From: Candidatus Nitrosopumilus sp.
Lineage (GTDB): Archaea > Thermoproteota > Nitrososphaeria > Nitrososphaerales > Nitrosopumilaceae
DNA length: 64,000 bases
Reading direction: 5' to 3'
Assembly: GCA_013215285.1 (NCBI GenBank)
Contig: JABSRD010000001.1
Location: forward strand, 124,001 to 188,000
Shown: piece after piece, positions 37,032 through 41,829 of the stretch
Layout of the letters: every line of letters begins with the position of its first letter
How positions within the stretch are numbered: position 1 is the stretch's first letter
Notes under the pieces: generated by a model
Databases searched by the model: none
What the model saw: the letters and a program-made list of their open reading frames with translations, nothing else
Told to the model about the DNA's origin: nothing
Made by a program: the position numbers and the translations under genes

Positions 37032-38174
37032 CTAATCAACAAAAGGTTTTGGATGATTCAAAATTACTTGTGCAACTTCAGGTCTTAGAATAAATTCAGA
37101 TGGTGCTTCACCATTTTGAATCATTTCTCTAAGTTTAGTTCCACTGATTTGCACTTTAACATCATTATCATGTGGACATGCTTTTGGAGTTGTATATGTA
37201 AGACATTTTCTACAATAGAAAAATGGCGGAAAGAACACTGGAGAAATTTCTAGTTCCGGATAATCCTCAAAGATTTTTTGTGCAGCAAATGGATCATAAA
37301 ACTTTCCAACTCCTGCATGATCTCGTCCAATTATGATATGTGTACATCCATAATTTTGTCTCATAATTGCATGATGAATTGCCTCTTTTGGTCCAGCATA
37401 CTTCATTTGTGTATGTAGGGTTCCAAGTTTGCATCTGTTTTCAGGATAGTATAATTTTATCATAGTTTCATAACATTTTACAATAACTTCATCAACAAAG
37501 TCACCTGCTTTTTTCTTTCCAATAATTGGATTGACAAACACACCATCACGTGTTGTAATTGATGTTTTTTGTAGCATTTCATGTGCTACATGTGGAGGAT
37601 TTCTAGTTTGAAATGCACAGATTGTTTTCCAGCCTGCTTGTGTAAATGCTTCTCTTGTTTGGATAGGTGTTAGTCTATTTTTTCTAATTTCAGTATCGTC
37701 AGGTCTTTGAATATAATCAATTTTTCCACTAACCAAATAATCCTTCATTGACATTGTATATGCAACACCTGGGTGTGATGCATCAGTTGTACCATAGATT
37801 CCTTGTGAGGTCTTTTCTTTATCAAAAGAAAATGTTTCTTCAACATGAATCACTGCAATACCTATTCCTTGAGGATTCTTAATCAACACATCACCTGCTT
37901 CTTTCATTTTTGATGCTGTTTGTTCATCAACATCTAGAACGATTGGAATGGTCCAAGCTAAATCATTTGATAATCTTCCACGTGAAACAACACTTTCAAA
38001 GTCTTGTTTACTCAAAAATCCTTCAAGGGGACTAAAAATTCCATCAGCTATATTTTCAACATCGTTTGCAAGATCTTCACTAATTGTAATTGCGAATAAT
38101 CCAGTAGGATCAATTTTAGTAATTCTGTTAATTAGAATTCCACCATGTGGTTTGATTGAATTATTCTCAGACAT
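37032..38174 (-). CDS. sat: ATP sulfurylase (sulfate adenylyltransferase)
   Basis: Makes APS from ATP and sulfate. Catalytic motifs [11 protein letters not shown] and GRDHAGVG are present, with a zinc-like CRKC...CPH cluster near residue 320 as in prokaryotic Sat. The TTG at 38183 would overlap the cysH stop; the ATG at 38174 gives [12 protein letters not shown], matching the family start, so I use it (380 residues). It lies one base after the cysH stop, so the two form a sulfate-assimilation operon. Confidence 0.94.
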
Positions 38175-38175
38175 A

Positions 38176-38901
38176 CTAGTCAATCCGTTTACGCTCTATA
38201 TGAAGGCCACACTCTTTGTTTCCCCCTTGTTCCCACCACCATCTTCCTGCTCTAAGATCTTCTCCAGGTTTTATGGGTCTTGTACAAGGTTCACATCCAA
38301 TACTAGGATAGTTTTTGTCAAGAAGACTGTTGTATGGTAGATTATTCTTTTTGATGTGTTCTTGAATTTGTTCCCAAGTCCAATCAATTATAGGATTAAT
38401 CTTTAGAATTCCACCATGACCAGAATCTAATTGAAATATTGTAACATTCTCTCTAGTTTTAGTTTGATCACGTCTTAATCCAGTAATCCAGCCATCCAAA
38501 GTATTCAACATTTTGTTCATTGGATGTACTTTACGGATTTCACAACATAATTTTCTATTATCTACACTGTCATAAAATAAATTCAATCCTTTTTCATTAA
38601 CCATATCTTCAACTTCTTTAGTATCAGGAAATAGTACTTCTATTGAAATATTGTATTTCTTTCTTACAACATCCATAATATCATAGGTTTCCTGTGGAAG
38701 TCTTCCAGTGTCTAATGTAAAGAATCTAAATTTCGGGTTAATTTTTAGCATAATATCCATAATTACTGCGTCTTCTGCACCAAAGCTTGATGCTTTTGCA
38801 ACTTTTGGATGAAGGTTATCAGATACCCATTGAAGTGCCTCCTCAGTTGTTTTAATTTTAGAATTTAGATCATCAACTTGTTCTTGTGTGAATTTTGCCA
38901 C
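38176..38901 (-). CDS. cysH: APS/PAPS reductase (CysH), iron-sulfur type
   Basis: Reduces activated sulfate to sulfite. GTG start, 241 residues. Motifs: [12 protein letters not shown] (PP-loop-like), [19 protein letters not shown] and the C-terminal KECGLH catalytic Cys. The CC pair in LCCEIRKV together with GCEPCTRP are the four cysteines that bind a [4Fe-4S] cluster in APS-type reductases; classical PAPS-only reductases lack them. So APS is a likely substrate despite an APS kinase elsewhere in the window. Confidence 0.92.
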
Positions 38902-40127: not shown

Positions 40128-41363
40128 GTGCTCAAAATAGGAGAATTCATCTATCCTTGGGGAAGTGGTCATTATTCTCGAATGATGAGGTTCAATGAAG
40201 CATTAAGTGATCATATCAATGAGAAATTTGAGGTTCATTTTTCAAGTAAGGGCCACGTTTATGAAAAATTATTGAAAAAATTTCCAGATGAAAAAGAGAA
40301 AATTCATGAAATTTTAATGCCAACACCAATTGATGGAAAATTTGGTCCAAGTGTTTCAAAATCATTAATGAATTTGTTATTACCAATTTCAAATAATCCT
40401 TCACTGATAAAACAAATTATAAGCTATTTGCGAGAAGAGAGAAAATTATACAATAAAGAAAAATTTGATCTTGTAATTAATGATGGCGATATGGGTTCAA
40501 ATATTTTGGCAAAGAATAGAAATATTCCAAGTTTATTTGTAACAAATCAATTTAGACCAAAACTATACAATTCAAGATCATATCTGTATCCATCACTAAT
40601 TTTTATTGCAAAACAAATTATTAAAGCATCAAAAATTCTTGTTGCAGATTCTCCACCTCCATATACTATGTGTGAATATAATCTAAATTTTATAAAAGAG
40701 GCAGAAGAAAAAGTAGTTTATGTTGGACATTTTACAAATAGTAAACCAATTAAAAAAGAAAATATCTCTGATCTTGAAAATTTAATTAAAAATAATCAAT
40801 TTGGATATTGGATGAGAACAGGAAATGAATCTACTAACGACGGCACTGGTCAAAGATATGAAAAAGTATTTCATAAAAATGAAATGAAAAATGAAAAGAG
40901 AATTATTTCTCATGCAAAAAATGATTCAAGTATTGATTCTGTAATAGGAAAAGATGGAAAAAAATATTCAATAGTTAATGCTTTAGAAAAAAAAATAGAT
41001 TGGATACAAATTGATGTTGGTTTTCTTTCAGAGCAAGAAAAAGACACAGTTTTGAATTTATGTAAATATGCAGTTGTTAATGGTTCACATACTGTAATGG
41101 GTGAGATTATGGGTGGAAAATCAAAGCCAATAATTGGAATTCCAATCTATGACGAACATACTAACAACATCAAATGGGCAGAAGAGAAGAATTTAGGAAT
41201 ATTAGCCATAAAAACAAAGCAAGTAATTCAAGCAATTTCTAAAATTAAAGAGAATTATGAAGAGTTTGAAGGAAGTTTAGGTGAATTTTCCAAGAATTTT
41301 GTTCCTAATGGGGCAGAAAATTCTGCAAAAATTGCAGCTCAAATTTTAGAAGAAAAGAAATAA
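40128..41363 (+). CDS. GT-B-like glycosyltransferase family protein
   Basis: GTG start, 411 residues. The N-terminus KIGEFIYPWGSGHYSRMMRFNEAL has the G-hairpin typical of GT-B (MurG/UGT-like) enzymes, and NDGDMGSNILAKNRNIPSLFVTNQF follows the same fold. Near the C-terminus VNGSHTVMGEIMGGKSKPIIGIPIYDEHTNNI resembles the donor-binding region (pattern GxxTxxExxxxxxPxxxIPxxxxQ). The middle insertion (about 225-280) is unusual. Donor and acceptor are unknown. Preceded at 31 bases by the THUMP protein gene. Confidence 0.75.
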   Translation: MLKIGEFIYPWGSGHYSRMMRFNEALSDHINEKFEVHFSSKGHVYEKLLKKFPDEKEKIHEILMPTPIDGKFGPSVSKSLMNLLLPISNNPSLIKQIISYLREERKLYNKEKFDLVINDGDMGSNILAKNRNIPSLFVTNQFRPKLYNSRSYLYPSLIFIAKQIIKASKILVADSPPPYTMCEYNLNFIKEAEEKVVYVGHFTNSKPIKKENISDLENLIKNNQFGYWMRTGNESTNDGTGQRYEKVFHKNEMKNEKRIISHAKNDSSIDSVIGKDGKKYSIVNALEKKIDWIQIDVGFLSEQEKDTVLNLCKYAVVNGSHTVMGEIMGGKSKPIIGIPIYDEHTNNIKWAEEKNLGILAIKTKQVIQAISKIKENYEEFEGSLGEFSKNFVPNGAENSAKIAAQILEEKK

Positions 41364-41386
41364 TACATTATTTTAAGAATTTTTCT

Positions 41387-41456
41387 TATCTGGCACGCGG
41401 GATTTCGATGGGCGAACGGACCGCAAGGGATGATGAAAAAATCCGCGTGTCAGATA
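41387..41456 (+). ncRNA. Candidate structured RNA: GC-rich long hairpin
   Basis: A GC-rich island in an AT-rich intergenic space. A 15-bp stem (TATCTGGCACGCGGG pairing with TCCGCGTGTCAGATA, two G-U pairs) closes a loop of about 40 bases that holds GGGATGATGAA, matching a box C consensus (RTGATGA), but no clear box D. The long helix is too strong for a simple terminator, and no T-run follows directly. Strand is undetermined; plus is assumed because of the TGATGA motif. Could be a guide RNA relative, a k-turn RNA or a cis-acting element. Confidence 0.5.
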
Positions 41457-41508
41457 AAATATCGATCATCTAATAATGTGGGAACGCTTTTATGGAAAAA
41501 ATTAAGCC

Positions 41509-41829
41509 ATGTCATCAGTGCCTAATTGTCCAGAATGTACAGCAAGAGAAAAAAAGAAAATTATTACAAAATATGAAGAAGAAACTGCTGAAGAAGAAAG
41601 AGGCAGAGATGATTTATTCAAATTATTTGATGAGATTGAAATTCCAATGAAGATAGATCCTGCTAGAAAGAATAATTTTATTTGTAAAAGATGTGGATTG
41701 TATGCTACAAGAGAACAAGTATCAGATATCAGATACAAACTAAATCAAAGAGAAAGAACACGTGATGACAAACATGATGACTATCTTGAATGGTGGTCAA
41801 AAAGTAAAAAAGAAAAAGCAGAAAACTAG
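41509..41829 (+). CDS. Small protein with split CxxC zinc-binding motifs
   Basis: 106 residues. CPEC near residue 8 and CKRC at about 60 could together bind one zinc ion; the helical, highly charged segments between and after them (EEETAEEERGRDDL, KLNQRERTRDDKHDD) suggest a nucleic-acid or ribosome partner. No family recognised. Followed after 11 bases by another small gene in the same direction. Confidence 0.7.
   Translation: MSSVPNCPECTAREKKKIITKYEEETAEEERGRDDLFKLFDEIEIPMKIDPARKNNFICKRCGLYATREQVSDIRYKLNQRERTRDDKHDDYLEWWSKSKKEKAEN

Follow-up and report, generated by a model that had tools for sequence, protein, structure and literature searches.

A conserved hairpin of ammonia-oxidizing archaea as a candidate single-k-turn guide RNA for 16S rRNA nucleotide C1402

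Guides for the eukaryotic counterpart of 16S rRNA nucleotide C1402, such as yeast snR70 and human SNORD43, are two-motif snoRNAs. The Arabidopsis guide for this counterpart is At1gCDbox192, and the same source gives C1402 as 2'-O-methylated in E. coli and the equivalent nucleotide as likewise methylated in yeast, human and Arabidopsis; in its Table 1, the archaeal entry for the site is blank (PMC11542601). Bacterial C1402 contacts the P-site codon, and its modification tunes the P site (PMC5053481). Archaeal predictions for helix 44, in the available text of a survey of seven archaea, are sparse and fall at other positions (PMC4644070). The nucleotide modified by a C/D guide follows from the fifth-nucleotide rule (PMC7994747, PMC7089733), and the rules for the C/D k-turn are laid out in the introduction of PMC7994747. 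As for architecture, Deryusheva and Gall describe a symmetrical two-domain RNP with two C/D motifs as essential in archaea and report that a permuted C'/D' single-domain guide was inactive in frog oocytes (PMC6770171).

The window analyzed here, a stretch of 64,000 nt from a Candidatus Nitrosopumilus genome, contains a hairpin that we read, with good confidence, as the gene of a small guide RNA of ca. 70 nt with a single k-turn, which would direct methylation of C1402 in 16S rRNA. The initial annotation had suggested a small RNA, C/D-like and with a k-turn; that direction proved correct, while the D' box, the guide and the target described below had escaped it.

The hairpin and its distribution

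The hairpin occupies positions 41387 to 41456 of the window, within an AT-rich spacer that separates ORF 40128-41363 from ORF 41509-41829. Its 15-bp stem (P1), supported by folding and by covariation, pairs 41387 to 41401 with 41442 to 41456 on the plus strand, and the folded segment had a minimum free energy of -27.6 kcal/mol, compared to a mean of -16.68 for 200 dinucleotide shuffles, none of which was equally stable (z = -4.03). When 20 nt of flanking sequence was included at both ends, z was -2.03 and seven of the 200 shuffles were equally stable. The motif GATGATGA lies in the loop at 41429 to 41436. The 15-bp helix with a TGATGA-bearing loop first noticed in this spacer is real. Among 29 loci of the same genus, mean pairwise identity was 0.94 for the element, against 0.70 and 0.67 for the 22 nt upstream and downstream, respectively, and 0.76 for the end of the upstream gene (the 300 nt preceding the upstream flank).

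An alignment of 48 rows was made out of 58 sources, omitting four loci whose core was not visible (L091 to L094, E of 0.19 to 0.77) and the near-duplicates L020, L026, L075, L085, L097 and L112. Standard pairs filled 87.5% of its paired cells, and 17 of the 19 pairs were changed on both sides. None of 500 shuffles matched any of the observed covariation measures, and the signal was lost when the partners were slid against each other. The hairpin, with its identity above that of the flanks and its abundant two-sided pair changes, exceeds chance; the check on compensatory changes proposed with the initial annotation came out in its favor, both here and in the covariance searches.

A BLAST search with a region of 96 nt found the element in 33 of 61 genomes (its own and 60 relatives), namely, in 31 of the 37 genomes of the genus and in two others, with a single match in each except for two in G054. 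A first covariance model, built from 25 sequences, had matches in 262 of the 400 order genomes sampled, spanning 40 of the 66 genera in the sample. The element was single-copy in 257 of these, with two matches in the other five, and it was found in 166 of the 209 order genomes with at least 90% completeness and at most 5% contamination. A broader model, built from 48 sequences and applied with strict filters across the phylum, matched 77 of 397 genomes, all from the order, which contributes 84 genomes to that sample; none of the 313 genomes outside the order matched. Under looser filters (E up to 1), nine of 22 previously negative order genomes and one of two class-level genomes gave a match, as did none of six genomes from the rest of the phylum. 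Of these ten, seven were confirmed to have the core (L167, L168, L171 and L173 to L176), and the remaining three (L169, L170 and L172), matched by model R2, lacked it in a motif search and were not counted as verified. Even with these filters, the near-complete family genomes G214, G217, G254 and G300 gave no match. Minus-strand covariance matches were the mirror image of the helix and were set aside.

A pattern that excludes P1, scanned over named genomes, occurred in at least 120 stretches, with 109 archaeal and 11 bacterial ones, as judged by record title, among the matches listed. The archaeal matches listed came from Nitrosopumilus, Nitrosarchaeum, Nitrosotalea, Nitrososphaera, Nitrosocosmicus, Nitrosotenuis and Cenarchaeum, as well as from a Methylarchaceae, a Geothermarchaeota and a Bathyarchaeota bin. 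A P1-like helix (score of at least 9) stood beside 107 of the 109 archaeal matches listed, compared to two of the 11 bacterial ones and 15% of shuffled flanks, and we took the bacterial matches to be due to chance.

At the element in the window, Rfam 15 gave no family at or above the gathering cutoff; the only one of four low matches (E up to 10) to cover the hairpin, mir-3492, was rejected with 13.9 bits against a cutoff of 44. A scan of 20 loci, of which 18 carry the hairpin and two an ordinary C/D-type pattern, gave tRNAs as the only Rfam matches. Among the papers listed by a title and abstract search of mostly non-subscription literature, none dealt with this RNA or with C/D sRNAs of ammonia-oxidizing archaea, and the available text of PMC5069720 holds nothing on this RNA. 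On the comparative evidence, the hairpin is a conserved small-RNA gene across ammonia-oxidizing archaea, with a promoter-like box of its own and without an Rfam family.

Loop anatomy and the predicted 16S rRNA target

In the 48-row alignment, the loop consists, in this order, of the guide, CNGA, a short stem and RUGANGA. Box D' (41417 to 41420, plus strand) reads CGGA in the window and in its genus and CNGA in nearly all rows; the G of its GA is invariant and the A nearly so. The initial annotation had seen no convincing box D, and this D'-type box lies 5' rather than 3' of box C. Clade f10 has one extra nucleotide ahead of the GA, which is why its register requires a D' of 5 nt. The short C-stem, CC-GCAA-GG at 41421 to 41428 (plus strand), is CC-GNAA-GG in the genus and longer elsewhere, with compensated bases; 91.5% of its cells were paired in the 48 rows, and both of its two pairs showed changes on both sides. 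Box C' follows at 41430 to 41436 (plus strand) as ATGATGA, and the TGATGA initially described as box-C-like belongs to a box C of the form RUGANGA, the UGA and, past one variable base, the GA being invariant in 48 of 48 rows. Base 2 of CNGA and base 5 of RUGANGA formed a standard pair in 28 of the 48 rows (U-A in 13, G-C in seven). The C-stem, a putative 3-nt bulge (41429 to 41431, plus strand, as placed by sequence) and the tandem GA, i.e., the elements of a k-turn, are thus present at the level of sequence and covariation, and CNGA-stem-RUGANGA would correspond to a C/D k-turn whose boxes follow each other from D' to C'. An H/ACA-like RNA, also suggested at first, is not supported by the alignment: close to where the stem ends on its 3' side, ACA occurred in two of the 48 rows and the looser ANA in 18. 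A mini-hairpin UCG/CGA within the guide (model R1) was dropped, since its C changes to U or A in relatives and the partner remains G.

At four loci of genus g2 (L173 to L176), the guide, D', CCC-GAGA-GGG and C' are retained and P1 is weak or absent; P1 is therefore dispensable in some loci. These loci possibly represent an even smaller guide.

The guide (CGATGGGCG, 41406 to 41414, plus strand) spans nucleotides 11 to 3 as counted upstream from D', with nucleotide 5 being G41412. Because no 23S rRNA was found in the genome of the window and its 16S match ends at model position 828, pairing was tested on 14 relatives, including one of the same genus (G021), in a search that covered rRNA. In all 14 (L087 being counted with a 5-nt D'), guide nucleotides 3 to 11 pair without gaps with CGCCCGUCG at 16S positions 1400 to 1408. 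As a numbering check, the site begins at position 1400 of E. coli rrsH, so the fifth guide base stands opposite C1402, the nucleotide that the fifth-nucleotide rule indicates. In the window, where D' is CGGA rather than CUGA, the duplex of guide and 16S rRNA has one G-U pair.

Complementarity to rRNA with free G-U pairing is frequent by chance: 88% of 2,000 shuffled guides had some run of 9 bp and 41% had one covering nucleotides 3 to 11, and the real guides, too, have other rRNA complementarities, with runs as long as 11. Under a strict rule, by which nucleotides 3 to 11 must pair with at most one G-U (G043) or none (G049), 16S 1400 to 1408 was the sole site in each of these two rRNA loci. 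Among 20,000 shuffled guides, some site was found for 10.6% with one G-U and for 1.9% without, and none of them reached 1400 to 1408 in either locus.

This pairing in 14 of 14 genomes would also suit an rRNA chaperone or assembly RNA, whose k-turn RNP would keep the 1400 region unfolded or set the timing of 30S assembly and would not methylate C1402. Archaeal C/D sRNAs are credited with chaperone activity as well (PMC7994747), and an RNA with a single k-turn may not support catalysis (PMC6770171). A chaperone, however, has no need of a fixed register to D', and the duplex observed here covers nucleotides 3 to 11, as a methylation guide requires, and sets the fifth base upstream of D' against C1402, which is methylated elsewhere (PMC11542601). 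We consider a chaperone without methylation unlikely and retain the reading as a methylation guide.

Gene context and guide machinery

The TATA-like hexamer ATAATA lies at 41360 to 41365 (plus strand), 26 nt before the 72-nt model match, a suitable distance for such a box, where it overlaps with the stop codon of the ORF upstream; a TATA-like box precedes the hairpin at all 29 same-genus loci. Of 42 lineages, 28 (13 of 17 in the family and 15 of 25 in other families) had one of 13 such hexamers, chosen by eye and without a shuffle control, at -26 to -29. Five more of the other-family lineages had one at -22 to -24 and five had none, and in several lineages (e.g., L079, L083, L086 and L088) no such hexamer occurred from -35 to -16. 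Downstream, outside the RNA, the promoter-like AACGCTTTTA of the following gene (41484 to 41493, plus strand) was found at 29 of 29 same-genus loci.

The neighbors are constant inside the family and mostly changed beyond it. Loci L001 to L031 had the upstream ORF in 30 cases of 31 and the downstream ORF in all 31, and both were present at the 20 loci from other genera of the family; at 26 distant loci, the upstream ORF was never found and the downstream ORF was found nine times. At L072, L074, L083 and L167, a tRNA gene follows within 50 nt on the same strand, so that RNA and tRNA may be co-transcribed. These data bear on whether the hairpin belongs to a neighboring gene, either as the 3' end or terminator of the upstream one, from whose stop codon it starts at a distance of 23 nt, or as a leader element of the downstream one. 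The constant neighbors within the family would agree with this, but TATA-like boxes on both sides of the hairpin and a loop that stays unchanged at the distant loci and ahead of the tRNA genes make it very unlikely. The regulatory hairpin that had been considered at first is likewise improbable as an element of the downstream gene, given the intervening promoter-like sequence and the different neighbors at a distance.

Pfam assigned no family to four neighboring ORFs. The product of ORF 41509-41829, without a Pfam match, has CPEC and CKRC pairs resembling a zinc ribbon, and a relative is encoded near the RNA at three of three f3 loci and nine of the 26 distant ones. By eye, two minus-strand ORFs at 37032 to 38901 of the window look like an ATP sulfurylase and a PAPS/APS reductase.

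Genes for fibrillarin and Nop5 were found in 12 of 12 genomes, and ordinary C/D-type patterns occurred in 25 of 61 genomes of the order (44 matches, versus six in a reversed control), some of which, in coding sequence, may be due to chance. The guide machinery is therefore present, and this RNA represents a special arrangement within that machinery. Loci L320 to L323 and matches in genomes G087, G107 and G079 share a recurring C/D-type motif that carries GAAAAGCC between its box C and CTGA; it looks like a C/D sRNA of the ordinary type that is conserved in the family.

Predicted mechanism and relation to known guides

Position 8 of the guide alternates between C and U opposite G1405 with the 16S pairing kept, which is consistent with a 16S partner at that position. 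The same alternation is informative on a guide for the stem of the 23S A-loop (UCGCCYAUY), to which nucleotides 2 to 10 pair in eight of eight genomes with U at position 8; in the six with C, this pairing is broken in every case, because the 23S base remains A, and the 16S pairing is intact in all 14, so that a 23S target is extremely improbable.

A strict search for a C-type box, this guide and CTGA in the same register gave four matches in the 397 phylum genomes and none in the order of the window. By eye, two of them, L163 and L164, look like full double-guide C/D sRNAs and L165 looks C/D-like; L166 is probably a chance match. That L163 and L164 carry this guide in an unchanged register lends independent support to C1402 as the target. 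It also leaves very little room for a k-turn that solely binds L7Ae, as a regulatory element or sink without rRNA pairing, since such a role, for which the k-turn anatomy and the L7Ae-mRNA binding proposed in an archaeon (PMC5539422) might be invoked, explains neither this sharing with ordinary C/D sRNAs nor the invariant GAYGGGCG outside the k-turn in the 48-row alignment.

As a methylation guide, the RNA would fold its D' and C' boxes into a k-turn to which L7Ae, Nop5 and fibrillarin bind, its guide would pair with helix 44 of pre-16S rRNA, and fibrillarin would methylate the 2'-OH of the P-site nucleotide C1402, which lies opposite the fifth base upstream of D'. The position held by the terminal box C/D k-turn in ordinary archaeal sRNAs is here occupied by the long P1 stem, which closes the guide loop and probably protects the ends. 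The RNP might contain one k-turn per RNA or two hairpins on one Nop5 dimer. It seems rather more probable than not that this is a naturally occurring archaeal C/D guide, distributed across the order and built on one permuted C'/D' k-turn, in which half a C/D RNP catalyzes or two hairpins share a Nop5 dimer, and that a dedicated hairpin guide replaces the double-guide sRNA for Cm1402 in ammonia-oxidizing archaea.

If true, ammonia-oxidizing archaea would set the widely conserved decoding-site Cm1402 by means of a dedicated hairpin guide. An order-wide guide in these abundant archaea would supply a candidate for the blank archaeal entry at C1402, and the single-k-turn layout would be a natural test of the requirement for two symmetrical motifs in archaeal C/D RNPs. 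An alignment and a model are now available for an RNA without an Rfam match at the scanned loci.

With archaeal C/D box sRNAs, which work with L7Ae, Nop5 and fibrillarin, this RNA shares RUGANGA, CNGA, the stem and bulge of the k-turn, and a guide directly upstream of D' that meets its rRNA site by the fifth-nucleotide rule. Unlike them, it has a single C/D motif in D'-to-C' order and one guide, with no terminal box C or D and with a hairpin of ca. 10 to 15 bp closing the guide loop. A terminal RUGAUGA within 45 nt 5' of the guide was found in none of the 48 rows (TGANGA in three) and CTGA within 40 nt 3' of C' in four; a further C/D motif at the termini, with a guide of its own, is lacking. 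The RNA fits an archaeal C/D sRNA in every feature tested except the terminal motif, and, given the absent terminal boxes and the two-domain requirement (PMC6770171), we do not file it as an ordinary one. L163 and L164, from other Thermoproteota (as well as the C/D-like L165), share the guide GAUGGGCG two nucleotides before CUGA in the same register, and the former two differ in having, by eye, the order C-guide-D'-C'-guide-D, a short terminal stem and no P1 hairpin. The laboratory single-domain and permuted C'/D' guides also combine one k-turn with a single antisense element, and the permuted form has the order seen here, but they are artificial and eukaryotic, and the permuted form was inactive in that setting (PMC6770171). 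With the eukaryotic guides for the counterpart of C1402, the likeness lies in the target, the same nucleotide by homology. Bacterial RsmI yields the same product, 2'-O-methyl C1402, but as a stand-alone protein enzyme (PMC5053481).
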